DNA of 49,225 nt. Source: a virus. The position numbers and the translations under genes are program-made. Below the pieces are notes generated by a model, which was not told where the DNA came from, ran no database searches, and saw only the letters and a list, made by a program, of their open reading frames with translations. The DNA lies in the IMG/VR virus record IMGVR_UViG_3300009008_000063, positions 1 through 49,225 of that record; one strand, 5' to 3'. This document shows positions 2,071-35,647 of the stretch, one piece after another. Within the stretch, counting starts at the first letter, position 1. Each line of letters starts with the position of its first letter.

Positions 2071-3066
2071 ATGATAGGACAATGGAAATCTCAAAAACAA
2101 GCATATCAAGAATCTTTAGTATACTTAAAAGGAAGAAAGAACGGACTAATAACTAGTATTAAGAGTCCTTGGGAAAAATTTAATAATGCATCAACAGATG
2201 GCATAGAATGGAATTCAATGACTGTTATTGGTGGTAGACCTGGTTCAGGAAAAACATTATTAAAAGATCAATTTATAAGAAATGCTTTTCCTTTAAACCC
2301 TGCTGAAAATTTTAGAGTTTTAGAATTTCAACTAGAAATGGTTGGTAAAAATTCTGCTATACGTGCATACGCAAGTGAACTCGGAACAAGTTATAAATAT
2401 TTATGTAGTGCAGATGGTGTTTTGTCAGATGCAGATTTAGTTAGATGTTTTGAATATGCTAAAAAAGCTATCAAATATCCAATTGATATTGTTGAAGAAG
2501 CTCCCAATGTATTAGAATTTAAAACAATTATAATTAATTATTTAAATAAACATGCAAAAATTGTAAAATGTCCTAAAACAGGAGAAAATATAAAAGAATA
2601 TACTAAAACTATAATTACTTTAGATCATTCAATACTAATTAAAGTTAAACCTAAACAAAGTAAAACAGATATGTTATATAATTTAGGTGAAGTTTTAACA
2701 GAAATTAAAAGAAAATATCCTGTTGCATTTATAATATTATCTCAATTAAATAGAGGTATTGATGCTCCTGAAAGAAATGAAGACGGTAAATATGGAAATT
2801 ACATATTAACATCAGATATTTTTGGTTCAGATGCTTTATTACAACATGCAGATTTTGTTATTGGTTTAAATAGACCAGGTATTCAAAAAATTAGATTTTA
2901 TGGACCTGATAGATATATAATTGATAATATAAATATATTAGTAATGCATTTCTTAAAATGTAGAAACGGTGAAACTGGATTAGCATTTTTTAAAGCTATT
3001 TTTGAAAATATGAAAGTAGAAGAAGCTAATACACCACCAAAATTAAACGTAAAACAAATAATATAA
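2071..3066 (+). CDS. DnaB-type replicative helicase
   Basis: This is a 331-residue RecA-fold ATPase matching the C-terminal motor of DnaB/gp4-type helicases, which unwind DNA at the fork as a hexamer. Visible motifs are a Walker A, GGRPGSGKT, at 54-62; a beta strand with Asp, TIITLDHS, near 181-188; a sensor-like strand IILSQLNR; and FLKCRNGETG near the C-terminus, matching the KxRNGxTG motif of DnaB. There is no separate N-terminal domain, so the protein is shorter than bacterial DnaB (about 470 aa). It follows the DnaA-like gene and the 194-aa unknown, and its TAA is followed directly by the ATG of the next gene. Confidence 0.88.
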   Translation: MIGQWKSQKQAYQESLVYLKGRKNGLITSIKSPWEKFNNASTDGIEWNSMTVIGGRPGSGKTLLKDQFIRNAFPLNPAENFRVLEFQLEMVGKNSAIRAYASELGTSYKYLCSADGVLSDADLVRCFEYAKKAIKYPIDIVEEAPNVLEFKTIIINYLNKHAKIVKCPKTGENIKEYTKTIITLDHSILIKVKPKQSKTDMLYNLGEVLTEIKRKYPVAFIILSQLNRGIDAPERNEDGKYGNYILTSDIFGSDALLQHADFVIGLNRPGIQKIRFYGPDRYIIDNINILVMHFLKCRNGETGLAFFKAIFENMKVEEANTPPKLNVKQII

Positions 3067-3582
3067 ATGAAAACTAAACTTACACCACAAGCAAGAAAAG
3101 AACTTGTAAGTGCATTAAGAAAACATCATGAAAATACGTTTCAAGAATTAAATATACCCAATGCTGTTTATATACCTAAAATGGCACACAATGTAACTGG
3201 ACAAACTGGAATACATATGGGATTTTTTGAAACAGAAATAAATCACGGAGAAGATGTATATACTGAAAAAGTTAGTCGTTTTATGGAATCAGAAGATCCA
3301 AGTAGGACTTTATATAAATTTACATATAATCCTCACTTTAAAGAAGAATATTCTACTTCTGAACCAGCTGTAACAGGAAATGTAAGATATTATGTTCCTG
3401 TAGATGAACTTGAAATAATAGATATTTCAAATATGGAAAATGAAGAATTTAATCTCATGAATCCTGATGAAGATCTACCACTAGATCAATTAACAATAAG
3501 AGACCTTGCTGCATTATTGTTAAACAAACCTGTAAGCAAGAAGATTTGGCTTAACCAAATAATAAACAAAAAAATCAAATAA
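3067..3582 (+). CDS. Unknown replication-block protein, 171 aa
   Basis: No family is recognised. The protein is soluble, with a basic N-terminal helix (TPQARKELVSALRKHHENT), a central part rich in beta-type residues with several aromatic residues (about 35-115), and an acidic stretch (NMENEEFNLMNPDEDLPLD) before a short C-terminal helix. The ATG abuts the TAA of the helicase gene, and the AAA-type ATPase gene begins two bases after its stop, so it belongs to a tight operon. A part in the replication machinery is suggested by position only. Confidence 0.7.
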   Translation: MKTKLTPQARKELVSALRKHHENTFQELNIPNAVYIPKMAHNVTGQTGIHMGFFETEINHGEDVYTEKVSRFMESEDPSRTLYKFTYNPHFKEEYSTSEPAVTGNVRYYVPVDELEIIDISNMENEEFNLMNPDEDLPLDQLTIRDLAALLLNKPVSKKIWLNQIINKKIK

Positions 3583-3584
3583 TA

Positions 3585-4271
3585 ATGGCTCAAAGTATTT
3601 TAATAATTGGAGAATCAGGGTCAGGTAAGTCTACAGGAGGTAGAACTTTAAAACCTGAAGAAACATTTTGGATTAATGTTGCTAATAAACCTTTACCTTT
3701 TAAAGGTTGGAAAACTAAATATCCAAAACTTAGTAAAGATAATAATAAAAAAGGAAGATTATCTACTGTAAGTAGCCCAAATGGCATAATCAAAGCAATG
3801 CAGTATGTAAGCGATGAAAGACCAGAAATCAAAAATTTAATAATAGATGATTGGCAATATATGTCAGCATTTGAATATTTTGATAGAGCAGATGAAAGAG
3901 GTTATGATAAATTTACAGATATTGGTAAATGGTTAGCAGCTACAGCTAAGAAACCTATGTCATTAAGAGAAGATTTATTTATTTATTTTTTAACTCATTC
4001 TGAAGAAAATACTGATGCTTTAGGTAAAAGAAAACAAAAAGCAAAAACTATTGGAAAAATGGTCGATGAAAAATTAACTTTAGAAGGTTTATTTGCTATT
4101 GTATTATATGCAAAAGTTAAAAGAGATGATGATGGAGAATTAAAATATGTATTTGAAACTAAAAATAACGGTATGAATACATGTAAAACTCCTATGGGAA
4201 TGTTTAAAGAAACTGATATCCCAAATGATCTAGAATTTGTAAGAGAAAAAATTGTTGAATTTGAAAACTAA
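3585..4271 (+). CDS. RecA-like P-loop ATPase (Sak4-type)
   Basis: This 228-residue ATPase has Walker A GESGSGKST at 9-17 and Walker B NLIIDDW at 84-90. The size and order of motifs fit phage Sak4-like, RecA-core ATPases, which work with single-strand-binding protein in single-strand annealing and recombination. The next gene encodes a likely SSB, the usual partner, which strengthens the call. A strand ending in T-H (FIYFLTHSEE, about 138) is a likely sensor element. The C-terminal part (KTPMGMFKETDIPNDL) resembles the end of the same group. A more general phage AAA ATPase is the alternative. Confidence 0.72.
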   Translation: MAQSILIIGESGSGKSTGGRTLKPEETFWINVANKPLPFKGWKTKYPKLSKDNNKKGRLSTVSSPNGIIKAMQYVSDERPEIKNLIIDDWQYMSAFEYFDRADERGYDKFTDIGKWLAATAKKPMSLREDLFIYFLTHSEENTDALGKRKQKAKTIGKMVDEKLTLEGLFAIVLYAKVKRDDDGELKYVFETKNNGMNTCKTPMGMFKETDIPNDLEFVREKIVEFEN

Positions 4272-18800: not shown

Positions 18801-21800
18801 TACAGCATCAAATATTTCATCATAATTTTCTTGTATTGATATAGATTCTTTAACTTTAACAGGTAAATTTTTAGTTAACATTTCAATTCTATCAAAAATC
18901 TTTTGTCTTTCATCATACCACTCTTGTGAAATTTCTGGTGTAGTATTTTGCATTAACCATATATCTAGTTTTTCTTTATATTTATCCTTAAATTCTTTAG
19001 AATTTTCATCTAAATTTTCTTCTAACAATGATTGATGCAACTTTTCAGTAAAATTTAAATAAGCATTATTAAATGCATTTGGAATTTCTTTCCACTCATA
19101 AAATTCTTTTTTAGCTTCTCTATATTCTTTTAATAAACGAGCTTTTTCTTTGCCATTTTCATCTTTTCCATATTCAGAAAACAACATTCTATATTCTTTC
19201 CATTTATCATTAATAAGAGCATAATGATCAAATTCATCTAATTCATCTGTTATAGCATCTGTTAAATAATTTAAATCTTTTAAAATTTGATCTCTTTCTA
19301 GAAGAGCTTCTCGACCTAATTCATTATCTAAAATTTTATCAGCTTCATAAAATTTATCAACAAAATCTTGATTAAAAAATATTCTTTTATGTTCTCTAAA
19401 CTTAGCTAATTTATTTGCATAATTGATAAAAGATTCTTTTGTTCTTTTATTTATATATTCTTTTTGAGCATCATCTACAGATTCTTTCATTTTAGCTAAT
19501 GCAAATCTATAATCTTTATGTTTATTTAATAATGACCATACTTCGTATTCTTCAATATTTCCTTCTTCATTTTTTCTTACATCTTTATCAACAAAAAGAT
19601 AAGGTTTCCAAAATTTTTCTAAATTATTTGCGTTATACCCAACTTTATCTAATAAAGGTTTTAATTCATCCATCATCTCATTAGATCTTCTATTTGCATC
19701 TACAAAAACTTCTGATAACGAATCTCTTAAAAATACTCCAAAACTTGCAATAACAGGATCATTGCTATACATATAACCTTCTAAAAAGTTATTCATAAAA
19801 TGTGCATCTCCTAAATTTCCTTTTAAATAATCTTTGAATTTTTCTTTAGACATAAAATATTTTTCATATCTATCTTTTTCTTTTTTAATTTTTTCTGCGG
19901 GTGCTCCTTTTTCTTTTAATTCTGCTTTTCTTTCATTCCAAAGTTCAGTCATTCTTTCATTAATAACATTAAACTTATCCCATAATACATCCACTAATCC
20001 TTTTTCTCTAACATTATTTATTATAATTTGAGATCGTTCAACACTTGATAAAATTTTATTTGTTAAATTGTCTAAATCAGTTCCTGGAGGAATTCCAGCA
20101 TCAATCATATTTTCTCTAATATTTTTTATAAAATCATTCCAATTTTCTAATAAGCTTTGATAATAATGCATTTGTATTAAATTATCTTTATTATCTGGTG
20201 ATTTAGAAATTTCTATTAAATGTTTATTTATTTTTTCTGATATTTTATCAATTTTTATTATATTTTTAATTAATGCATCTGAAGCTTCTTTATGAAAATT
20301 TAAATCTTCAATTAAATCTTCCATTGCTTTATTTGCGTTTGTTAATGTTTGTATATCAATAATATTTTTAGACATTTGATTATATAAGCCTTCACCTATT
20401 TCAGGAGCTAATATATCACGCATAGCTTTAAGATTGTTTTCTTTTCTAATTCTTGTTATATGATTTAAAATAATAGTATAATTTTCATTTATTATTTGTA
20501 ATAAATTATCTGTATCAAAATTTTCTAATTCTTCTGAAAATTTATTTATATCAGTTAAATATTGAACAATATCTTTATTACTTATTATATCTGTATTGAT
20601 ATTAAACGTCCCTCCTTCATTTGTGGCAGCTTTATTTAACATATCAGCTAATTCTATCAATGTAGTATTAGGAGATAAATTTTCAATTTTAATTTTATTT
20701 CCAAATAAATATCTAAGAACTTTTTTTATACCTAAAATAAGTCTTTTAATTATCGACTCATTAGCTTTTGTATTTGTATCATTTTGTTTTGTAAAAACTG
20801 ATTTAGTTAATGCTTTCACTAATATTTCATTTGTAATAACTGGATCAGATTCATTAAAATTAGGATATTCTTTTAATGCCTCATTTAAAAAAATTTCATA
20901 ATCACTAGTTTTTTTCAAATCTTCAATTAACTTATTATATAAACCTGGATTAGTTATTCTAATAGCGTCAATTAAAGGATGAGAAAATTCATGAATTATT
21001 TGATCAGTTGATTGTAATTTATCTACAAAATAAACTTGCCCATTAAAATAAAATGATGATTGACCTGCCCATGGATTTTTTGTACCAGTAGTAATACTTC
21101 TTGCTTCGTCTTCTGATACAATATTATATCCTATATTTAATTTAGATGATAAACCATTTGCAATTTGTAATAATATGTTATTTGCTATTTTATTTTTTTG
21201 TCCTTTTTCATCTAAACTAAAAAACTGTACTTCTTTTTTTACTTCTTCTTTTAAAGTTTTTGCATCTTGAAAAAATTCTTCAATTGTATCTTGTTCTTCT
21301 TTTAATGTCCAAAATCTAAAACCTTTATTTGTAAACTTATTCTTATCTTCAGATGTTGGTACAAAAAATATTAAATCAGCCATATCTTTTGGCCTTCCCA
21401 TATTGATTTTAGCTTCCATTATTTGTTTCCAATCTTTATAATAATGATCAAAAATCTCTGGATAATTACCTTCAGATGTTCTTAAAAAGAAATCTAATTG
21501 AAATCTTTTAGGTAATAATTTACCATGATCAGGATCATTTGCATTATCAAGAAATTCCATTTCTGTAGGATGCTCAACATATCCCATTATTGTAATACTC
21601 TCACCTTTTTTATGATCTCTACCTATAAATGTATTTTCAAATGTCCAAGTTGGAAAACTATTTTTAATATTTTTATACCATGTTTGATCTTCAATAAATC
21701 CTAATAATTTACTTCTAAACTTCTTTTTTGCAGAAGGAGAAATTTTCTTTGAAAGATGTATTCCTTCATTTCTAATCCAATTAAACATTTCAAATGCATT

Positions 21801-23296: not shown

Positions 23297-26200
23297 TTAA
23301 TTACATTCTTGATCTAATATACTTAATATTTTATCAATATCAGAATTTATACTTTCTCTTAAATATTTATTATCAATCTCTTGTGTTTTTTGTACCATTT
23401 TGGTTAATTCACTCGACTTCATTACACCAGGGTTTATAAAACCAAATTCTTCATATAATAAAGTTGTTAAATAACTATATGTTCTAGGAGCTTTTTCTTG
23501 AAATTCTGTTCCATAACCACTATCTATAAAAATTATATTATTACCATTTAAATTAAGTTGATCAGATATCATTTTAATTTGTTCATTTAATAACTCTACA
23601 TTTTCATCAAAATTTTCATCAATCATGTCTGTAACAGTTATAGGTAATACAGTATTACTTTTATTAATTTTTGAATAATTAGCTTTGTCCTTACCAATAA
23701 TCATTACGTCTTTATCTTTTATTGATGGAGCTACAAGAACTACATTTTCTTTCCCATTTATTTCTTTTATTGTATTATCAATCACTTTTATACTGTCTTT
23801 TATATCTTTAAAAGAAAAACTATATATATTATCTCCAATAATATTAGAAGTTTCTATTAAATCTTCCATAATTTGTGTATCTACTGTCCAATCTCTAAAT
23901 CTATAATTTGATTTTGAATTACTACCTGCGTATTTAGCTTCAAATTTTTGAGCAAAATCTTCTAATTTTTCATATATAATTAAATCATCTTTACTATTTA
24001 ATATATTTAAAGCACTTGTTGAAGCTGCCTTTAAAATATTAATTATATTTTCATTAGGTACAGCTCTTACCATTGATAATGGTGTTTTTATGTCTTGGCC
24101 ACTTTGTAAAAATGCATAAAAAGGAAATCTTTGAAAAAATTCAGATATTCTTTTGTTTTCAAATTGATTTTCATTTTTTATTATGCTTGGATCCATAAGT
24201 TCAATAAGATTCATATAATAATTTTCTAAAATTTCAGATTCTTTAATTTTTTCAGAAAATTTTAAATTGAATATTCCATAGCCTTCATCTATTTGTATGT
24301 TATTTAATATTTCATATTGATCTAATAAATTTTCATTTTTATTTATAATTTCTATTAATTCAATAGCATATGATCTTTTAGAAGATCTAAATATCTTATA
24401 TCTATTATAAATATTATCAAGTGCTTTATTTTTTAAAAATGCATTATAAGCATCAGTAATTTTTCTTTTTCTAAAATCTTCTTCTGATTCAACAGGTTTT
24501 ACTTTACCACCAATAAATTTAACTTTACGTTCTATTATTTCTTCTGCTTCATTAATAAATCTTATAAAACCAGGATCATCTACAATTTTTTCAGGTTTTA
24601 ATATATATCTTAAATATTCTTTTTCTAATAAATAATCCATATATTCTTCTTCACTTTTAATAAAACTTAAATTTTCATATCTTCTATTTTTAAATTTTTC
24701 TTTTAATGTTTTTGGATCCATGTATATTATACCATCTTTTATAACAACAGCATCTTCAAAATTTTCAAACTTAACAGATTTTATATCTTCAAATCTAAGT
24801 CCATTATAATATTTATTACCATCAGATTCTAATATTAATTTAGATTCATCTTTAATTTTATTTTGAAATAAACTACTTACATATTCATTTTTAAATAAAT
24901 CAATATATTTTTCTTGTGCTTCAGGACCAGAACCTAACCGCATTCTATTCATTATTTTATTTATACCAGGTTCATTTATTTTATTTAAAAGAAATGAATT
25001 AATATTTTCATGATTTCTTAATTCAAATAAATTAGTTAAAAACCTAATACTAAAATTAGAAATATCAAATTTACCTATAATGGATTCATTTAATAATTTA
25101 TCAATCATATTAGGATTGACATATTTTAAATTTTTTAAAAGTATTTTACTTTGTTCTCTTGAAAAAGCTTGATATAATGATGTAGATTTTTTAGTATCAT
25201 AATTCAAATTTGTTTTCATAGTTGTTATATTAGAAGCAGGATCTTCTAATTGTAAATAATGATAAAATAAAGCTTGTGCTAATTCTCTATTATTATCGTT
25301 AATTCCATCCTCTGCAATGCTTTTTAAATTTTCTAATGTAAATTCATTTTCATATTTATTTACTTGAGAATTTAAAAAATCTGGACCTAATTTATACATG
25401 TTCCATGGAAATTTATTTAATTTATTATTAAATACATTTCTTCTTGCAGTTTCTTTAACTCCAGTTTTCACATTTAAAACTGTACTAAATATAGATTTTC
25501 TTATTTGCATTTGTTTTACATACTCTGACACATACGGATTAGATATAAAATAAACTGCTAAATCACGAGAAACTCCAGATTCAAATAAAGTAGTTAAAAT
25601 AGGAGCATTTTCTAAACCTGCATTTATATCAAATAACCAAGCTTTTTTCTCAACATCCACAGCACCATTAATTAATTGTGAATTTGTATCTGATATCTTA
25701 TTTCCAGTAACATCATATATATTAGATAATGATATATATTCTTTTTTATTTATTTTACGTTTATTATGTGGGAGTTTTAATTTCACTTTTAAATTAATTC
25801 TAGGATTATTACCAGTATGATATACTGTATAATCAGCATCAATACTTTTTAAATAATCTATAAAATAACTATCAACTCCTGGCATATCTCCTACAACAAA
25901 ATTATAACCTGCAGCACTAAGATCTGCAATATTATTTTTTGTTTTATCTAATAAATCAATACCATTAAACTTTCCATTTCTAGCTAACATTATTGTTTTT
26001 CCTGTAGGTTTTAATGCAATTACATAAGCATGTTTAGATTTAGCATCTTGACCAATATCAGTCATTGTTTTAGTAGCTCCAGGACTTGCTAAATTAAAAC
26101 TAGTTAATGTAGAAGATTCTTTTCCAGCTGTCCAATCTATTTCACCTATAAATCCTGCATCTGCAGCTTTTCTCATTGCTTTATCTTTACCGTCTCCTTG

Positions 26201-29200
26201 AGGAGTTCCTTTACCTCTATTTTCAAATCCACCTTTTGTTTTAAATTCAAAATCATCTATATACATTCCAATTCTATTAAATTGTGAATTAAAAGTATTA
26301 TTAACAGCATATAATCCTAAAACATCTTTTCCTATTGAGTTAGAAGCATGTTTATATAAATTATACATAGGTTCAAAAATTCTTGCAACTTCTAATATAT
26401 CAGAAGTTCCTTCACCATTTAATTTTGTAAACTGTGAATATTTTTCTTTACCTACTTTACTTGAAGCTAATTTATCAGCAATATCTTCTAATTCTACATT
26501 TCCAATTGGTAATATTAAATCTACAAAGTTTTCAGGTTGTTCTAATATATTTTTAATGACCATTATCATATCATTATCAATACCTTTAGAAGTTTTTGAA
26601 TTTAACTTTCTTTTTACCTGGGCCATTTCTTGATACAAAGGTTCTAATTTTGCTTGTTGTTCTTTTGTAAAAATTTGATATTTTTTCATATCATAAAAAG
26701 ATGATAATTCTTCAACTCTTTCTTGAGCCTCATCTAATTTTATTCTTACTTCATTTAATTTATTTAATACATAACTTCCTTTTACTTTTCTAGATTGTAA
26801 AAATAAATTATCCCATTCTTTTTTCAGAGTTATAATCTTTTTTCTATCCTCTTTACTTTCTTTTTTAAATTTATTTTTTTGTTCTAAAAATTCTTTTTTC
26901 AAATTTTCATCTAAATTATTAAACTTATCTTTATAAGATTTTTGTAAAAATGCATCTCTTTTTTCTTGTATAGTATCATATAAATAATCTTTACGATCTA
27001 ATAATTCTTCTTCAGTTTCAGATACTTCCATATTTTCAACTAATTCAGGTTTATTACTTATTAATGATATATTAGGCATATATATAGAAAGTTTATCAAC
27101 ATCAAAATCTGAACCTGATTTAGCAACAATTTCAGATGGTGGAATTATTATATTACCCGCACTTTCAGGTAAAAATTCTTGAACTTGCATGAATTCCATA
27201 GAATTAAGACCTTGTACAGGTATTCTTACACCAACCATAGTGATCATATCTCTATTTTTACCTATACTTAACCATTTTTCATCGGTAATCATAGCATTTA
27301 ATCTATCTAAAGTTTTGATTGCTTGGCCATCTATATGTTCTGCATTTAATAATTTTTTAAAATCACCTTGTAATGCAATCTTCACACCCATTCCAACAGT
27401 TAAACCAGTATTAGGATCTTTTATATATGATGTTAAACCATTAGTACCATAAGTAGCTAAATCTAATTCAGAAGGATTTGTAAATTGAGAACTTTCAAAA
27501 CCAGAATTAGAAACTTGGATAAGCATTTCTCCATTTAATTTTTCTCTAATCAATCGATTATTAACTAAAGCCATCAATAATTTTTCAATTTGTGGAGCAT
27601 TAAGAGACAAAGATAAATCTGTTACAATTTCACCTGTAATTGGATCAGCATTTATAAAATCAAGTTCATGCATAGATAAATCTCTTGCTTTTAAATGTTT
27701 TACAACCATTTCTATTAAACCTGAAACATCTTTAGAACCTAATGTATAACCTGATTCTTTTAATATTTCTTCTTTACTTCTTTCTATTCTTTGTTCAATT
27801 AAACCTTCATAAATATTTACAAAATTTTTCATTTTAGAAGAAATAGCTCTTCCTTTATTAAATAAATTTAATTCAACTAATTTTCTAAATTGAGTTGCAA
27901 AAGTAGCTTTTCGTTTATATGATTCATTTATATCAATTTGATCTTTTAAAAATTCTATATAAATAGGATTAGATAAATATGTAATTGAATCATCAAAAAC
28001 TCTACTTTCTGTTGCTTTAATTTGTTCTTGATAAAATGGATTTGCTTTACCATCTTCAGTAATAGTACTTATTTTACTTGATGATTGATATGTAGCATAA
28101 CCTTTATTTTCTTTTACTAACTTATCATGTAATAATTGTAAATTTGTTCCTTCGATAAGATTAGGTATTAACGGTAATAATGAATATTTATGTAATGCAA
28201 TTAATGGTAAAGTTCCAGTTGTAGCTAAAGGTCCTGAATATTGATATTTTCTAACTGGAAAATATTCAGTTAAATCATAATTAGATACATCTTCACCATT
28301 TATTATTTTATTATATAAATCTTCTTGTTCATTTGACCATTTTCCTTGAAGACGACCTAACATTCTATACATATCAAATGTAAGATAACCTTGCGCATCT
28401 CCTTCTTCCATTTCTCTGTATGGGCTTATAGCATTTTCAACAGCATTATTAATAGTTTGTTGTCTTATATTTTTAGGTAAATCTTTATATCTTTCAGTAA
28501 AATATTCTATAAACGCATTTTCATAATCGTTTATATAACCTGATGTAACAAGATTTTCTTGTAAAATCACTGTATCTATAATACCATTAAAATCTTCAAT
28601 ATCATGTCCAATAGATGCAGCATATGTAGCAAATTTATTTGGATCATCTGATACATTCATTACATTATTTATATAATTATAAATTGCAGGATCATTTCTA
28701 AATATTTGTCCAGCTGAAACTAATGATGAGTTTCTTTTATGAAAATCTTCTTTAGCCATATTATATTGAAGTGGATCACCATATAATATACCCATCATAT
28801 CAAATTTATTTAACATTTGATTTGATACATATGATTTTATAATTGCTTCAACTACATCATTATTATTAATTTCAGTTTCAGTAGATTTTTTTAAAATATT
28901 ATTAGTAACTTCATCTAATAATTCATTAGAAATAAAAGGTAACTCATTAAATATCAATCTTGTTCCTTGATATACATTTTCTAAATATGTATTTAAATCT
29001 ATAATTAATTTTTCTTCGATTGTAAAGTTTTTATTAAACTGACTATCTAAAATTGTATCAAAATCAACTTCAAACAATTCATTATTAAAATTTTTGTCAT
29101 TTAATTCAGTAATAGCGTTATATAAATCCGTAGATAACATTCCTTTAAAAAGAGATAATTCTTTACCAACAGCATTATCACCAGCTGTATATCCTAATAC

Positions 29201-32200
29201 TTCTGGTTGATTTCCTTTTTTAATAATATTAATTCTATCAATTTCTGACTTTAAATTTTCTATTAATAAGTCTATAGTAGAATAAAAACCTTTATTAATA
29301 ACAATATCATCAGATATTTCAATTTTATTATTTACATAAAAATCAGATGAATCCACATATAATTTTGTATTGTATGTAGCATATGCATTTATTCTTGAAG
29401 CTGTTAAACTTAACGATTGAGATTTAGATCCATGTCTTGGTAATTCAGGAGTTCCTCTTAATAAAGTTGTATGAATATCTTGTATTAATTTATCGTATTC
29501 AGATAAACTTAAAGTAATATCAGAATCTTCAAGTATACCATCAGTTACACGTGCAACACCTGATAAATTAATTAATAATAATTTTACTTCTTTTTTAGTT
29601 AATGTATCAATAACTTTTGGATATTCTGGTTTGTTAAAATCATATATAGATTGTAATATTCTATTGCTTGATACTTGCGGATTAAATTCAGGATCAAGGT
29701 ATGACATGTAAGGGTAATTCTTTACTAAATCTGATAATGATTTACTTTCATTTATCGCATTTGTAATTCTATTGATACTTCCATTAAATGTAAACTCATT
29801 TACAATATCATTATTCACATTTGATGCAGAAAAATTAGAATACTTATCACTATATCTTGCTTGTAATTCCAATATTTGATCAAGTCTTCCGCTTTCAGTT
29901 TTTAAATCTTTTGATATATCCGTAATAAAACCTTTTGTTCTAATAGTTTTATAAATCCATTTAACAGCTGTTTTATATTGTTTTTTTCTATTTAATTCAT
30001 TTATAATCATTTTATTATCATCAAGTCTTATACCTGCATCATATAAAAATTGATAAACATTATCCGTTGCATCATATTCAGTAGAATATTTTTCTATAAA
30101 TTTTGATCCTTTTTTAGCATTCAAATAGTTCTGATTATATTTATTTTTTTCTATAAATCCATTTGAATCATCTAATGATTTAAATTTAGAATTTATATCT
30201 CTTTTAATTTTAAGAAGTGTTGCTGATGTTCTTCCTACTGTAACAGTTTCTTCAGGAACATCTAACTCTTCTATATTTCCTTCTGAATCTTCAACTTTTG
30301 TAACTCTCTCATATGTTAATGCTTCTAAAGGAACAACTGATTTATTAAATGTTTGCCAAAATTTTGTCCATAAATGAGCTTCAGATTCATAATTATGTTT
30401 ATGAGGATTTCCTAATTTATTTTTTAATTCTGTTAAAACACCAGTAAATTTAGGATCAGTTTCTATTTCATTTTCAATAACAGCATACATTTTTTGAGGA
30501 CTAGATAGGGATTGTAAAATTTTTTGTAATCTACTCCATGTTTCATTAAAATCTCCATTCGCATGAAAACCTAATGGATCTAGTATAGGATTTCCTTTAT
30601 TATCATATTTATGTAAACTTTTAATTAAAAATAAAATTTCATTACTTGCAGTCTCTTTTGATGTTAATTTATTAGATGATCCTTCAACAGTTTGTTGCCA
30701 TGTAATATTCTCATTTATTTCATTAGTTAATTCTTGTATTGTTTCAGTATCTAATGTTAATTTTCTATCAGATAAATATTTAGAATTATTTCTATGATAT
30801 GCTACAACACCTTCATTAGTAGTTAGATTTTCAATATCACCCCAGTTTGCAATTGCATAATCAATCAAATCTATTTTAGATTGATCAGTTAAAATATCTC
30901 TTTGTTCACTTAAACGTCTTAATGCATAATTATAACCGTGAACATACATTATCTCAGGTTGTGTAAATAAAACAGATGTCCATTTCTTATGATCAGGATA
31001 TTTTGCATTTTGTAAATTAATAAACTCAGAAAATAAAGAATCAATTGATCTTAATATTACTCTAGATTTTTGTATATCAAGATTTTCAAATTCATCATTT
31101 ACTGGTTCAATACCATAATTTAATTGTCCCCATCTTGGATTGTTAATATTATATTTATATTTATTAAATACTTCTCCTGTAGATAATTTTTGTTGTAATT
31201 CTCTAACTTTTGCAATTGATTCAGGACGAGTAATTGCAGTTTCATAACTAGTTCCATAAAATAAATATTTAAGAAAATCTAATATCTTTTGAAAAATTGA
31301 TTTTTTTACATTAGATACTTTTAATTTACCATCAGATAACATATATTTTTTAAAATCTTCTGCTAAATATTCTTCTATTTCTTTATCTGTAGCTTCAGAA
31401 AACTTTTTAGTTTCACCTTTATATGTTTTAAATTTACCAGAATCCTTTTTAACACTATCATATAATTCTTGTCTCTCACTACTAGGTAAAAACAATTGAG
31501 TAAATCCATGCCATGCTTCATGATAAAGATCAGTATAATTACTTCCTTTATATAATGTTATACCGTTTACCATAAATTGTGCATATGCATCTGAATTTAC
31601 AGCATTAAAAGCAGGAGTAAATTTTAATAATAATTCTCCTTTTTTATTACGTGGCATTGTGTCATTATACCATTTTTCAGCTTTATTTATATGAGCTAAT
31701 TCCTCTTTAGTAATTTTTCTTTCAATTGGTTTTCCTTCTTTATCTTTTAATATAGACTGTCTTAATTCATCAGTTATATCATCTAAATTATTATCACTAA
31801 TATTACTATTATATGTAGTATTTTTAATAACTGGTTTGGTATTATCCGTTTTTAATACATTACCTTTTAGTAAGATATTTTGAGCAGCATATAATCCATC
31901 AATAAATGCTTCATCTATTTCAGTATTTGATGGATGTGTAAACTCTGCATATTTTAATAATCCTTTAGCAGCTTTAGAATCAGAGTTTTGAACAAATGAT
32001 TCTATTACTAAATCTTTCATTAATTCAAGATTGATACTATAATCAGCATTTTTACCTCTTATTTTTTTACCAAATCCAGGTGTATTTTTAAGATTATTAT
32101 ATTTATCATAAGTTGCTTGATCAAACTCACCTGATTTTAATGATTGATACGCATGCTCAACACTACCATATTCTTTTTCTTCATATGTAAATTTCCTAGG

Positions 32201-35200
32201 TGCTAAATTTGATAATATTCTTACATCAGATTCAGATGATTTATTTCTATTTTTACCGCCCCAAAGAATTTCTATAGAACCTGTTGGTTTAGAAATTGGA
32301 TCAGTTTTAATTAATTGAGGTTTTAATTTATCAAACTCTTTTTCAGAATTTATACCTATTCCCATTGAATTTCCTTTTGTTGCAATTGATATATGAGGAA
32401 AAGGTATATCTAATTTAATGTCAAGTTCTTTATTTATAGTTTCAATTATACTAAGTATATCAGGTGAATTTACTTTTTGTATAATTGATTGTCTTGTCTC
32501 AGATGGTTTACTTTGTTTTTTTCCTTCTTTATCAGTCCATTCAGCAGCAGGATAAGTTTTAGAAATCATATAATATTCTGGTAATCTAGTATATGCAATA
32601 TGTCCTTCTTTTTCAGTAACTTTTTTTATTAATCTATTTAATTCTTTTCTTACATTATCTGATTTATCAGAAAGATTTTCTTCAATTATTCTTTTTAATC
32701 CAAATCCAATTACTGTTATATGTTCTTCATCTTTTATATCAAAATCATTATCATCTATATAATTTTGTATATTATCTGAAATTTCATCTTTTTTAACTGG
32801 TAATAAAATAGTTTTTACTGGATCAGAAATTCTTATTACTTTTTTAACAACTGTTTCAAACTCACTCTCTGATTCAGTAATTCCAAATATATCAACTTGA
32901 TCTTTTATATCTAGTTTTGTATTCTTTTCTCTTGTTACACCTGTTAATACTGTTGTTAATCCTTTTGCAGTATTTCCATCAATTATAGCATCACCATACT
33001 TTGGTTTGAATGTTATAATTACATTTTCTTCTGATTTAAGTTTATATGTATTATTTAACAAAATATTATATGCAGATAATTGTAAGGTAAACTTTTCTTT
33101 ATCTGACATCCCAAACATTGTAGAGTCATAATATTTAGTACCTTGTTTTTTAGATTTTATATCATATATTTTAATAGCACCTGTTTCAGTATTCACTGTC
33201 AATAAATCAGGAGTTCCTGCAACACCCAGTTCATCATTATGTAATACTATACCTTTAGAAATAACTTCTTCATTATTTTTTTCAAAATATGTATCTAATA
33301 TATCTAATTCATTTAAAAATTCTTCATATACATCTTCACTTACAAAATATGATGTATTATCAATTTTAGATACATAATCTTCATAATCATTAACTCCTTC
33401 TTCAGAAAAATAATCTCTTACTAATTCATCTAAATTATTTCCTATTTCTGTAGAAGTTTTTAAATTTATTAAAGTATCATTTATTGTATCAATATTTCCT
33501 TCACTTATATTATCATATAGATCTCTAATATTACTAGGAAGACTATGATAATCAGCTACGCTTATTAATCCATTATCAGAATTAAAATATAATGGGATAT
33601 CGTTTTCATCACGCTCATCCATTAAACTAAATAATTCTAATTCTTGATTTTTTGGACTAATTACATCTGTTACTCTATTATATTCTATTTTCCTACCATC
33701 TACATATCTTTCATATTTATTAGTTTCATTATTAAGTTTAATAGATTTACTAATATTTAATATTTGATTTATAATTTCTTTAGATGTTAAATAACTTTTA
33801 TTAGTTACTTTATTTTGAATATCAGTTATTCTTTTAACAGATTTTTGATTTTTACTATTTAATAAATATTCATTATCAGATTGAAATATATAGTATCCAC
33901 CTAAAATTGGTAATAAACCCTCATCATTTGGAATTAACTGTGTATAGTTATTTTCTTTAATCCAATCTTTATAAGACATTTCAGTAGTGTCAACTATATT
34001 ATTTTCAATGTCAGTAATATCATTTATTTTATTATTACGCAACAAAGTTTTATTTATATTTAATGTGTACTTTTTAAAAATTTTATTTAATGTATTTTCA
34101 ATTTCATCTTTGTCTTCAACAATTTCTCCTTCAATTTTTACTACAAAATCATTTTTATTTGTTGTTAAAAATTCAATATATCTTTTAGCATAGAAATAAC
34201 TATTAATATAATCTACTCTTTCTTTAGCAGTCATTTTTCTTGTACGACCAGTTCTTGTTCTAATCTTTAGATTATCATTTGTTGCTAATTCTATTATAAG
34301 ATCTTGATATCTTGTATTTTCAATTAAAGGGCTCCACACTCTTATTGGTTGATACACATCATCATTTAAATTTATAAATGCAAATGAACCTTCAAAATCT
34401 ATATCAAAACCAAAAGGTGTTTCTTCCCATTTAACATCACTTAATTTTGTAAATTCAGTAATATCTTCAGAATGCATTCTTAATAAATAACCTGGATTTA
34501 TCGCAGTTATATCATTAATAACTATATTATTTTTTTTATCTGCATGAATATAATCTATCATATTCCATAAAGCATCAAATTCTTCTTTTAAAAATTCTTT
34601 TACTTTTTTAATTGATAAACCTGTTTGATCACTTATTTCAGAGAATGATTGTAATGTAGTATATCTAGTACCATATTCATTGATCTTAGAATTTTTTCTA
34701 ATATTGTCATATATAGCAACACCTTCTTTTTTATCTACTACAGAATATGTTCCATCTTTATTTTCTTTAAAATATAATATATTTCCATCAACATCAGTTA
34801 TAACAGCTGAGACTCCATCTTGAAAAGATTTTTTTCTACCCTTTAATGAAATATCTTCTTCTACATCTTTTCCTAAATCTTCATCATATCTATAATCTGT
34901 ATAAACTTTATCATTCTTTCTTTTTCTATGTGACTCACGTAAATCTTTATCTCTAAGTTTAGTAGAAGACATTATTGTCATTTTAAACCCAGTATGACCA
35001 CCATAAGTTAATTCAGATAACCCAAGATTTTTATTTTTACGTAATAATCTTGATAACTCTTTTTTAAAGTTTAAATAAAAAGATTCATTCTCATCTTCAA
35101 TTCTTTCATTTTCTTTAACAGCTGCAAACTTATGAGGCCTTGTTAGTGTTGCAAAAAAAGTACTCGGTGAAGCATCATATAAAACTTCACCAGTTTTTTT

Positions 35201-35647
35201 ACCTTTTTTTATTATAGATGTTTTAGGTTTACTTGTATTTACACTACTAGAAGTTGATTCTTTTTTATATAGAGCATTTAATTCCTTTATTCTTTTTTTA
35301 GATAATCCTTCATCTTCTTTTAAGAACTCTATAACATTATTAAAATCCGAAAAACTTTTTCTTAGCTTATTTAATCTATTAAAATCAAAATCTTTATCAA
35401 CTAAATAATCAGTAAAATTATCAATATGACCAATTACTTGAACATATATTCTTGGAAACTGTTGAACATATGCAGCCATAAGTTCAGCACTTTGATTATT
35501 TTCAATTCCTCTAATATAAAAATCTCTTAAAGTTTTTTCAATATCAAAATCACTATCATTAGCAACTGCCTCTTTGATTCTTTTTACAGCTACACTTGCT
35601 AATTTATCAATTTTATCAGGTGTTAATTCTATATCACAAATTGCCAT
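23297..35647 (-). CDS. Virion RNA polymerase fused to nuclease, 2H, NADAR, zincin and SLOG-like domains
   Basis: This is a 4116-residue protein. The catalytic core is of the crAss-like/QDE-1 type: DFDVDKL at 2847-2853 gives the three metal-binding Asp residues, preceded by RIPVQGLNSMEF (2808-2819) as in beta-prime subunits (R...NADFDGD), and K2756 in MGVKIALQGDF may be the Lys of the first barrel. Before the core are: a PD-(D/E)XK nuclease-like domain (about 733-870; GTPD814, YD829IK), a 2H phosphoesterase-like domain (HITV at 976, HISI at 1085), a NADAR-like domain (about 1120-1262; LSNLAPRKF, SVEHAYQSLK) and a zincin (HEAWH 1376-1380, Glu near 1426). After it, at 3145-3290, lies a Rossmann/SLOG-like segment (FVVGDMPGVDSYFIDYL). 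Packaged polymerases of this type transcribe early phage genes. The extra domains suggest delivered anti-defence or processing activities (inferred). About 700 N-terminal residues are unassigned. Confidence 0.85.
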   Translation of the reverse strand: MAICDIELTPDKIDKLASVAVKRIKEAVANDSDFDIEKTLRDFYIRGIENNQSAELMAAYVQQFPRIYVQVIGHIDNFTDYLVDKDFDFNRLNKLRKSFSDFNNVIEFLKEDEGLSKKRIKELNALYKKESTSSSVNTSKPKTSIIKKGKKTGEVLYDASPSTFFATLTRPHKFAAVKENERIEDENESFYLNFKKELSRLLRKNKNLGLSELTYGGHTGFKMTIMSSTKLRDKDLRESHRKRKNDKVYTDYRYDEDLGKDVEEDISLKGRKKSFQDGVSAVITDVDGNILYFKENKDGTYSVVDKKEGVAIYDNIRKNSKINEYGTRYTTLQSFSEISDQTGLSIKKVKEFLKEEFDALWNMIDYIHADKKNNIVINDITAINPGYLLRMHSEDITEFTKLSDVKWEETPFGFDIDFEGSFAFINLNDDVYQPIRVWSPLIENTRYQDLIIELATNDNLKIRTRTGRTRKMTAKERVDYINSYFYAKRYIEFLTTNKNDFVVKIEGEIVEDKDEIENTLNKIFKKYTLNINKTLLRNNKINDITDIENNIVDTTEMSYKDWIKENNYTQLIPNDEGLLPILGGYYIFQSDNEYLLNSKNQKSVKRITDIQNKVTNKSYLTSKEIINQILNISKSIKLNNETNKYERYVDGRKIEYNRVTDVISPKNQELELFSLMDERDENDIPLYFNSDNGLISVADYHSLPSNIRDLYDNISEGNIDTINDTLINLKTSTEIGNNLDELVRDYFSEEGVNDYEDYVSKIDNTSYFVSEDVYEEFLNELDILDTYFEKNNEEVISKGIVLHNDELGVAGTPDLLTVNTETGAIKIYDIKSKKQGTKYYDSTMFGMSDKEKFTLQLSAYNILLNNTYKLKSEENVIITFKPKYGDAIIDGNTAKGLTTVLTGVTREKNTKLDIKDQVDIFGITESESEFETVVKKVIRISDPVKTILLPVKKDEISDNIQNYIDDNDFDIKDEEHITVIGFGLKRIIEENLSDKSDNVRKELNRLIKKVTEKEGHIAYTRLPEYYMISKTYPAAEWTDKEGKKQSKPSETRQSIIQKVNSPDILSIIETINKELDIKLDIPFPHISIATKGNSMGIGINSEKEFDKLKPQLIKTDPISKPTGSIEILWGGKNRNKSSESDVRILSNLAPRKFTYEEKEYGSVEHAYQSLKSGEFDQATYDKYNNLKNTPGFGKKIRGKNADYSINLELMKDLVIESFVQNSDSKAAKGLLKYAEFTHPSNTEIDEAFIDGLYAAQNILLKGNVLKTDNTKPVIKNTTYNSNISDNNLDDITDELRQSILKDKEGKPIERKITKEELAHINKAEKWYNDTMPRNKKGELLLKFTPAFNAVNSDAYAQFMVNGITLYKGSNYTDLYHEAWHGFTQLFLPSSERQELYDSVKKDSGKFKTYKGETKKFSEATDKEIEEYLAEDFKKYMLSDGKLKVSNVKKSIFQKILDFLKYLFYGTSYETAITRPESIAKVRELQQKLSTGEVFNKYKYNINNPRWGQLNYGIEPVNDEFENLDIQKSRVILRSIDSLFSEFINLQNAKYPDHKKWTSVLFTQPEIMYVHGYNYALRRLSEQRDILTDQSKIDLIDYAIANWGDIENLTTNEGVVAYHRNNSKYLSDRKLTLDTETIQELTNEINENITWQQTVEGSSNKLTSKETASNEILFLIKSLHKYDNKGNPILDPLGFHANGDFNETWSRLQKILQSLSSPQKMYAVIENEIETDPKFTGVLTELKNKLGNPHKHNYESEAHLWTKFWQTFNKSVVPLEALTYERVTKVEDSEGNIEELDVPEETVTVGRTSATLLKIKRDINSKFKSLDDSNGFIEKNKYNQNYLNAKKGSKFIEKYSTEYDATDNVYQFLYDAGIRLDDNKMIINELNRKKQYKTAVKWIYKTIRTKGFITDISKDLKTESGRLDQILELQARYSDKYSNFSASNVNNDIVNEFTFNGSINRITNAINESKSLSDLVKNYPYMSYLDPEFNPQVSSNRILQSIYDFNKPEYPKVIDTLTKKEVKLLLINLSGVARVTDGILEDSDITLSLSEYDKLIQDIHTTLLRGTPELPRHGSKSQSLSLTASRINAYATYNTKLYVDSSDFYVNNKIEISDDIVINKGFYSTIDLLIENLKSEIDRINIIKKGNQPEVLGYTAGDNAVGKELSLFKGMLSTDLYNAITELNDKNFNNELFEVDFDTILDSQFNKNFTIEEKLIIDLNTYLENVYQGTRLIFNELPFISNELLDEVTNNILKKSTETEINNNDVVEAIIKSYVSNQMLNKFDMMGILYGDPLQYNMAKEDFHKRNSSLVSAGQIFRNDPAIYNYINNVMNVSDDPNKFATYAASIGHDIEDFNGIIDTVILQENLVTSGYINDYENAFIEYFTERYKDLPKNIRQQTINNAVENAISPYREMEEGDAQGYLTFDMYRMLGRLQGKWSNEQEDLYNKIINGEDVSNYDLTEYFPVRKYQYSGPLATTGTLPLIALHKYSLLPLIPNLIEGTNLQLLHDKLVKENKGYATYQSSSKISTITEDGKANPFYQEQIKATESRVFDDSITYLSNPIYIEFLKDQIDINESYKRKATFATQFRKLVELNLFNKGRAISSKMKNFVNIYEGLIEQRIERSKEEILKESGYTLGSKDVSGLIEMVVKHLKARDLSMHELDFINADPITGEIVTDLSLSLNAPQIEKLLMALVNNRLIREKLNGEMLIQVSNSGFESSQFTNPSELDLATYGTNGLTSYIKDPNTGLTVGMGVKIALQGDFKKLLNAEHIDGQAIKTLDRLNAMITDEKWLSIGKNRDMITMVGVRIPVQGLNSMEFMQVQEFLPESAGNIIIPPSEIVAKSGSDFDVDKLSIYMPNISLISNKPELVENMEVSETEEELLDRKDYLYDTIQEKRDAFLQKSYKDKFNNLDENLKKEFLEQKNKFKKESKEDRKKIITLKKEWDNLFLQSRKVKGSYVLNKLNEVRIKLDEAQERVEELSSFYDMKKYQIFTKEQQAKLEPLYQEMAQVKRKLNSKTSKGIDNDMIMVIKNILEQPENFVDLILPIGNVELEDIADKLASSKVGKEKYSQFTKLNGEGTSDILEVARIFEPMYNLYKHASNSIGKDVLGLYAVNNTFNSQFNRIGMYIDDFEFKTKGGFENRGKGTPQGDGKDKAMRKAADAGFIGEIDWTAGKESSTLTSFNLASPGATKTMTDIGQDAKSKHAYVIALKPTGKTIMLARNGKFNGIDLLDKTKNNIADLSAAGYNFVVGDMPGVDSYFIDYLKSIDADYTVYHTGNNPRINLKVKLKLPHNKRKINKKEYISLSNIYDVTGNKISDTNSQLINGAVDVEKKAWLFDINAGLENAPILTTLFESGVSRDLAVYFISNPYVSEYVKQMQIRKSIFSTVLNVKTGVKETARRNVFNNKLNKFPWNMYKLGPDFLNSQVNKYENEFTLENLKSIAEDGINDNNRELAQALFYHYLQLEDPASNITTMKTNLNYDTKKSTSLYQAFSREQSKILLKNLKYVNPNMIDKLLNESIIGKFDISNFSIRFLTNLFELRNHENINSFLLNKINEPGINKIMNRMRLGSGPEAQEKYIDLFKNEYVSSLFQNKIKDESKLILESDGNKYYNGLRFEDIKSVKFENFEDAVVIKDGIIYMDPKTLKEKFKNRRYENLSFIKSEEEYMDYLLEKEYLRYILKPEKIVDDPGFIRFINEAEEIIERKVKFIGGKVKPVESEEDFRKRKITDAYNAFLKNKALDNIYNRYKIFRSSKRSYAIELIEIINKNENLLDQYEILNNIQIDEGYGIFNLKFSEKIKESEILENYYMNLIELMDPSIIKNENQFENKRISEFFQRFPFYAFLQSGQDIKTPLSMVRAVPNENIINILKAASTSALNILNSKDDLIIYEKLEDFAQKFEAKYAGSNSKSNYRFRDWTVDTQIMEDLIETSNIIGDNIYSFSFKDIKDSIKVIDNTIKEINGKENVVLVAPSIKDKDVMIIGKDKANYSKINKSNTVLPITVTDMIDENFDENVELLNEQIKMISDQLNLNGNNIIFIDSGYGTEFQEKAPRTYSYLTTLLYEEFGFINPGVMKSSELTKMVQKTQEIDNKYLRESINSDIDKILSILDQECN

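Follow-up and report, generated by a model that had tools for sequence, protein, structure and literature searches.

Exchangeable enzyme modules around and inside a predicted crAss-like virion RNA polymerase

The giant polymerase gene and its surroundings

The minus strand of the window (the whole stretch of 49,225 bases analysed here) carries a block of very large genes, one of which is a single ORF encoding a protein of 4116 residues (Table 1). Intact colinear homologues of 4095 and 4080 residues were found on independent contigs (L035 and L036/L116/L117). Searches of Pfam, PHROG and PDB with the whole protein were nearly blank, and therefore domain segments and profiles built from homologues were used. 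Matches to MOG1, METTL14 and Alliinase_C were dismissed as chance.

Table 1. Position of the polymerase gene, its domains and the adjacent giant genes in the window
Feature	Residues	Window position	Strand	Remarks
Giant crAss-like virion RNAP fusion	4116 aa, one ORF	23297..35647	(-)	single uninterrupted frame
N1 region	11-360	34568..35617	(-)	N-terminal, conserved in RNAP giants, without known family
PD-(D/E)XK (Cas4/RecB-like) nuclease	716-890	32978..33502	(-)	G811, D814, D829, K831, Q856, Y860
2H-phosphoesterase-like segment	955-1112	32312..32785	(-)	motifs H976-I-T-V and H1085-I-S-I; unproven
NADAR domain	1114-1262	31862..32308	(-)	profiles and predicted structure
Zincin-like metallopeptidase	1313-1530	31058..31711	(-)	HEAWH 1376-1380, E1426
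RNAP core, part 1	2240-3135	26243..28930	(-)	RIPVQG 2808, DFDVD 2847-2851; 6vr4 match, tblastn, alignments
DFDVD metal-binding motif (DxDxD)	2847-2851	27095..27109	(-)	three D invariant in 15 aligned rows
Inserted domain	3136-3286	25790..26242	(-)	GKGTPxGDGKDKAMR, VVGDMPGVD; predicted Rossmann-like fold
RNAP core, part 2	3287-3600	24848..25789	(-)	colinear with insertion-free relatives
DUF7831 domain	4010-4098	23354..23620	(-)	C-terminal, recurs in RNAP giants
Second giant gene	2477 aa	15852..23285	(-)	neighbour in transcription/cargo block
1589-aa gene	1589 aa	35665..40434	(-)	immediately upstream of RNAP gene; position similar to crAss cargo genes

The polymerase core was identified by two routes. 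When a profile made of residues 2527-2887 and 14 relatives was compared with solved structures, the sole match was the RNAP of phage phi14:2 (6vr4, E 4.5e-52). A tblastn search with the C-terminal 1877 residues retrieved crAss-like phages, the best rows being 22-24% identical over about 600 residues, and phi14:2 g066, annotated as a catalytic RNA polymerase subunit, was among the matches (E 2e-15). The earlier note had recognised a phi14:2-type core in this protein, and it had placed the DFDVD motif and R2808, which sits in VGVRIPVQG, at exactly the positions found here. By its homology to phi14:2 gp66 and its DxDxD motif, the window protein is assigned to the crAss-like (Crassvirales-type) virion RNAPs.

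The size of roughly 2200 residues quoted earlier for such polymerases holds for phi14:2 but not for the related crAss RNAP proteins, which are usually 3000-5400 residues long and in most cases already carry a zincin. The window protein shares with phi14:2 gp66 and the crAss-like RNAPs the core with RIPxQG and DFDxD and the same gene block; unlike the window protein, gp66 has 2180 residues and lacks the zincin motif, the NADAR domain and the inserted domain. The fusion size of the window protein recurs in crAss relatives from the gut, which have 4400-4800 residues and in most cases a zincin.

Two regions without an assigned activity frame the protein. N1, for which an iterative profile search gave 67 matches, is N-terminal in most relatives. 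DUF7831 was recognised by Pfam at 7.5e-4 in the window protein and at 8e-37 in one relative; its 48 matches among RNAP giants are C-terminal and only now and then N-terminal (L050).

The second giant gene encodes an HEFSH motif at residues 765-769 (window positions 20979-20993), and a stretch of 93 residues around it is 36.8% identical to Bacteriophage sp. MT835470. PD-(D/E)XK was not detected in this gene, unlike its counterparts in about 50 relatives. By eye its N terminus resembles ART-PolyVal; the ART profile built here gave no support, and the assignment was dropped. A family search with the 1589-aa gene was without match; the gene order that it shares with crAss genomes makes it a putative counterpart of the crAss cargo genes. 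A crAss-like replication block would fit the content of the window's other half, where a DnaB-type helicase, an AAA ATPase, a DnaG-type zinc ribbon and a stand-alone PD-(D/E)XK protein are encoded.

Enzyme domains before and within the polymerase core

In the earlier note, four enzyme-like domains in front of the polymerase core and a SLOG-like segment behind it had been claimed. Among these five, the PD-(D/E)XK, NADAR and zincin domains are supported, and the 2H and SLOG assignments are tentative.

The nuclease segment matched the exonuclease family phrog_298 at 1.2e-9 in the window protein, and the same family was recognised in 22 of 26 rows; Cas4 and further exonuclease families also match, as does Pfam PDDEXK_1 (0.005). 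The G-x2-D ... D-x-K ... Q-x3-Y motif set of Cas4/RecB-type nucleases is present, its residues G811, D814, D829, K831, Q856 and Y860 being 94-98% conserved over 52 rows. For the zincin, H1376, E1377, H1380 and the downstream third ligand E1426 are 93-100% conserved over 102 rows, which bears out the zincin claim by its HExxH...E motif; comparison of the segment with solved structures and Pfam gave no significant match.

Taken alone, the NADAR segment of the window matched weakly (Pfam 0.013; phrog_1017 1.6e-7). It is 55% identical to the domain in L033, and the NADARs of other RNAP giants reach up to 5e-14 with Pfam NADAR. The profile led to E. coli YbiA (2b3w, E 1.8e-5), and the same structure was the top Foldseek match (prob 1.00) of an AF2 model with pLDDT above 90 over most of its length. 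Furthermore, E1164, H1165, K1171 and H1238 are 96-100% conserved. The domain is thus identified as a NADAR, with a predicted YbiA-like fold and the active-site residues kept. It has the same fold and family as the NADARs of the YbiA superfamily (PF08719) but is embedded in an RNAP protein; outside RNA-virus polyproteins, NADARs are typically standalone (virus survey, PMC9503650). A scan of bacterial genomes for NADAR found none.

The retention of catalytic residues argues for the nuclease, zincin and NADAR being active enzymes, and from the intact residues the nuclease and zincin activities are plausible.

The 2H phosphoesterase is a candidate by motifs. What was found is the motif pair HITV at 976 and HISI at 1085, and such a 2H-type pair arose in 0.26% of segment shuffles and 6% of whole-protein shuffles. 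Two approaches found no homologue of the segment, no Pfam family matched, and a scan with the motif pattern retrieved two 2H-like phage proteins whose similarity to the segment was not significant. The predicted model was poor (pLDDT mostly about 45-64, low confidence) and gave no fold match with Foldseek.

The last of the claimed domains proved to be a conserved one that lies inside the RNAP core rather than after it. Alignment with near relatives showed a clean insertion of about 150 residues at SIGKxxLGLYAVNNTFNSxFNRxG / KLPHNK...ISLSNIYDVTG..ISDTNSQLINGAVDVEKKAWLFDI, common to the window, L035 and L036. Six relatives (L019, L037, L038, L039, L043 and L095) have 0-25 residues at this site, with both flanks in register. 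A search with the segment found 24 viral loci, and the 24 aligned members share the motifs GKGTPxGDGKDKAMR, MLARN, VVGDMPGVDSxFIxYL and YHTG. Elsewhere the domain stands after the RNAP (e.g. L011, L014, L019, L032) or before it (L016, L025, L027).

The AF2 model of the inserted domain is alpha/beta (pLDDT 82.9). Compared with PDB by Foldseek, it gave nothing significant (best 0.094; SLOG-containing ThsA at rank 8, 0.34), and against a viral library the best match was an unnamed protein (6.8e-3), with DprA-like and DUF2493 proteins at 0.53-0.73. Membership of the SLOG family received no support from profile, Foldseek or profile-profile comparison (P 0.4 with the cpYpsA SLOG profile). The inserted segment is real, strongly conserved and, as modelled, Rossmann-like; SLOG is a lead and not a result, and the domain is called SLOG-like below in this sense.

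Exchange of modules among relatives

The earlier note had also suggested that crAss-like polymerases be surveyed for the same domains. This was done with about 110 relatives, gathered with an RNAP alignment (best 80 of 526 matches), a two-row NADAR alignment (80 loci) and the SLOG-like segment (24), and the loci were annotated with profiles built from the window's domains. Loci L035-L114 were picked by RNAP alone, and L011-L034 and L115 onward by NADAR or SLOG-like similarity. Viral contigs scanned with the entire protein, or with the NADAR segment by itself, gave no match.

The constant part of these proteins is N1, zincin and RNAP, often with DUF7831 at the end; the zincin is found in most crAss RNAP giants. 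Among the best 80 of 526 matches picked by RNAP alone, NADAR was present in four and the SLOG-like domain in three, so that each single module is uncommon.

The position of the modules varies. NADAR lies N-terminal to the zincin in the window, L036, L126, L128, L131 and L133-L135, between zincin and RNAP in L138, and after the RNAP in many loci. It also occurs inside the RNAP, ahead of the RIP motif in L130 and L188 and immediately after DFDID in L118, and in a neighbouring gene (L123-L125, L143). In about 50 loci PD-(D/E)XK belongs to the giant gene next to that of the RNAP; the RNAP protein itself contains it in the window and in L035 and L036.

The latter two are the most informative for the stretch between nuclease and zincin. 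Their RNAPs are 72% identical to that of the window over the profile region, and the stretch itself is swapped: the window has the 2H-like segment and NADAR, L036 a cpYpsA SLOG domain (PF12694, 3.4e-24) and NADAR, and L035 ART-PolyVal (PF18760, 1.3e-3) and an AlkB-like 2OG-Fe(II) oxygenase (PF13532, 2.6e-8). The cpYpsA SLOG domain of L036 occupies a neighbouring slot and differs from the window's RNAP insertion. In L159 and L163 a cpYpsA SLOG domain stands C-terminal to NADAR in the same ORF, and in L036 N-terminal to it; the pair therefore seem to travel together.

In the regions after the RNAP of 93 relatives, Pfam recognised AAA_30/PIF1-type helicases (12), 2OG-Fe(II) oxygenases (8), NADAR (5), cpYpsA (2) and ART-PolyVal (2), with HD, RNase H and zeta-toxin-like domains occurring singly. 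Proteins of 4600-5400 residues extend up to about 3000 residues past the RNAP motif (L120, L118, L083, L137); in the post-RNAP stretch of L120, Pfam recognised no domain.

Other arrangements were observed during the survey. Five giant phage ORFs of 3900-6000 residues (L139, L142, L147, L149, L177) carry NADAR, crAss RNAP not being detected in them, and on their sequence may be further polyvalent-type proteins. In cr108_1 (L002, 17903-18200) the RNAP gene ends right after GSD and resumes about 250-300 bases on at YDIDKMYL, so that the DxDxD motif is split by intervening, intron-like sequence. In L093 (9990-10010) the RNAP consists of two ORFs with a 4-base overlap in the conserved core, either a split polymerase or a frameshift.

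In an RNAP tree of 112 rows, built quickly and with branches that are long and deep forks that are weak, NADAR changed state at least 21 times and the SLOG-like domain at least 18 times. NADAR and SLOG-like identities are inflated and their range narrowed because similarity to those domains was used to collect part of the loci; read with this limit, zincin and RNAP identities correlated with r=0.92 among pairs of NADAR-bearing giants and NADAR and RNAP identities with r=0.25, the SLOG-like domain gave r=0.12 with the RNAP (zincin control, r=0.90), and the NADARs of RNAP giants averaged 53% identity and their RNAPs 26%. For instance, L118 and the window are 65% identical in NADAR and 20% in RNAP. 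The inserted domain of the window shares 48-49% identity with the copy in L035/L036 and 59% with that in L018, the RNAP of which is 26% identical. Judged by these identities, zincin and RNAP form a co-evolving chassis to which neither NADAR nor the SLOG-like domain is coupled.

A probable delivery chassis and its rivals

RNAP, PD-(D/E)XK, NADAR and zincin reside in one ORF, and among the relatives domains are shuffled combinatorially, with MPTase and ART among the recurring partners, as in polyvalent proteins. We consider it probable that the injected virion RNAP of this crAss-like phage is such a protein, made of an inherited chassis and exchangeable enzyme modules. The earlier note had proposed a polyvalent protein fused to the injected RNAP; the comparison favours this, as domains swap and move around the zincin-RNAP chassis, among them ART-PolyVal, a Pfam family that takes its name from polyvalent proteins; the 2H and SLOG parts of the proposal are tentative. 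Relatives swap accessory enzymes, even within the polymerase core, and this gives the injected polymerase the look of a chassis that would deliver a changing set of enzymes for host takeover or counter-defence.

The vertically inherited chassis would comprise N1, the zincin metallopeptidase, the double-psi-barrel RNAP with DxDxD and usually a C-terminal DUF7831, with module slots of at least three kinds: the gap between N1 and zincin, loops of the RNAP core and the region after the RNAP. If phi14:2 and phi-crAss001 are a guide, the protein, its N-terminal part included, would be carried in the capsid, leave through the tail in a partly unfolded state and refold in the host, where it would begin early transcription. 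In phi14:2, the products of g066 and of the genes beside it belong to the virion (annotation with an MS/MS note); phi-crAss001 virions hold RNAP-associated cargo proteins, and partial unfolding is needed for tail exit (PMC10172136). Since they would be carried by the injected RNAP, the attached enzymes would arrive ahead of any phage gene expression.

In the window phage, the modules would be the Cas4/RecB-type nuclease, a possible 2H phosphoesterase, NADAR and the conserved Rossmann-like domain. NADAR enzymes reverse guanine ADP-ribosylation and are antitoxins of DarT1 (PMC11543638); most plausibly, therefore, the NADAR of the window would strip ADP-ribose off guanine of the incoming phage DNA or transcripts, or off ADP-ribose-derived signals. 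The remaining modules would cut nucleic acid or degrade signals, and the substrate of the zincin may be host proteins or the polyprotein itself.

The main rival to a counter-defence purpose is a role in starting up transcription, in which the enzymes would serve the polymerase and the incoming genome by unwinding, end processing and base repair, and would also take ADP-ribose or alkyl adducts off the template. PIF1-type helicases and AlkB-like oxygenases are frequent in the slots and RNase H occurs there too, about 50 relatives have a Cas4/RecB-type nuclease in this block, for the most part encoded by the gene next to that of the RNAP, and modules adjoin the RNAP motifs. The helicase, AlkB-like, RNase H and nuclease modules of the relatives suit nucleic-acid housekeeping as well as counter-defence. 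However, frequent gain and loss among close relatives points to conflict genes more than to core transcription factors, and ART-PolyVal and zeta-toxin-like modules are unsuited to repair. As the explanation in place of anti-immunity we regard this role as possible, if doubtful; both roles may hold.

A rather unlikely reading is that the zincin or another protease cuts the giant protein apart into its enzymes, either as it matures or once it has been injected, the fusion being a packaging device. The zincin is near-universal in the chassis and lies between the N-terminal slot and the RNAP, which would also be compatible with a polyvalent delivery chassis; release of the modules inserted in the core would require cutting the polymerase, and phi14:2 g066 has no zincin motif. 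It is very unlikely that the modules are passengers, that is, tolerated chance fusions of little or no function in a giant that is extruded and refolded anyway: each is in a minority of the best 80 of 526 matches by RNAP, but the catalytic residues are kept and the same few families recur at independent positions. As for an assembly or gene-calling artefact joining several genes, the record is metagenomic, of 49,225 bases and without a named near relative, but the single uninterrupted frame and the independent contigs L035 and L036/L116, with the same order and insertion, refute this.

With regard to known systems, a fusion of zincin and RNAP is nothing unusual in these phages. Publications have described RNAP genes of giant, multidomain type, and PD-(D/E)XK in large transcription proteins of some crAss-like phages (PMC7886860), zincin-fused, PD-(D/E)XK-bearing crAss giants and N4-type polyvalent RNAPs being already known. 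In Iyer et al. 2017 (PMC5512222), N4-type RNAP with zincin and effector domains is a worked example of polyvalent proteins: the N4-like virion RNAP is injected and fused to a zincin MPTase, some members having ART or other effectors, which follows the same logic as the window protein. However, the polymerase of N4 is of the single-subunit, T7 type and is not related to the double-psi-barrel enzyme of crAss phages; NADAR and SLOG have 0 occurrences in that paper, and the passages considered describe no RNAP-core insertion. A search of the literature other than the structure paper on phi14:2 and the crAss paper of 2018, where an earlier mention may stand, turned up no crAss RNAP described with NADAR, ART, SLOG or AlkB-like modules, nor any with an enzyme inserted in its core. 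Within the literature searched, the NADAR/ART/SLOG slots and the insertion into the RNAP core are thus new, and the real finding is the swapping of modules around and inside the RNAP core.

A further proposal, which we hold to be unlikely, is that a NADAR, AlkB-like oxygenase or helicase borne by a core loop acts on template or transcript at the transcription bubble and removes base modifications made by the host (e.g. guanine ADP-ribosylation of DarT1 type) at the very sites where the polymerase would be blocked. If true, the injected RNAP would be a moving repair and counter-defence machine with a plug-in module.

A NADAR or a Rossmann-like domain within an RNA polymerase core is an unusual case. 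As close relatives carry swapped modules, direct tests are possible with one chassis and differing cargo. The polyvalent crAss-like RNAP would be a convergent counterpart of the N4 polyvalent RNAPs, built on an unrelated polymerase fold, and it points to where early-acting counter-defence enzymes of phages could be sought. These observations suggest that in crAss-like phages, which are very abundant, the injected polymerase also serves to carry a fast-exchanged set of enzymes.
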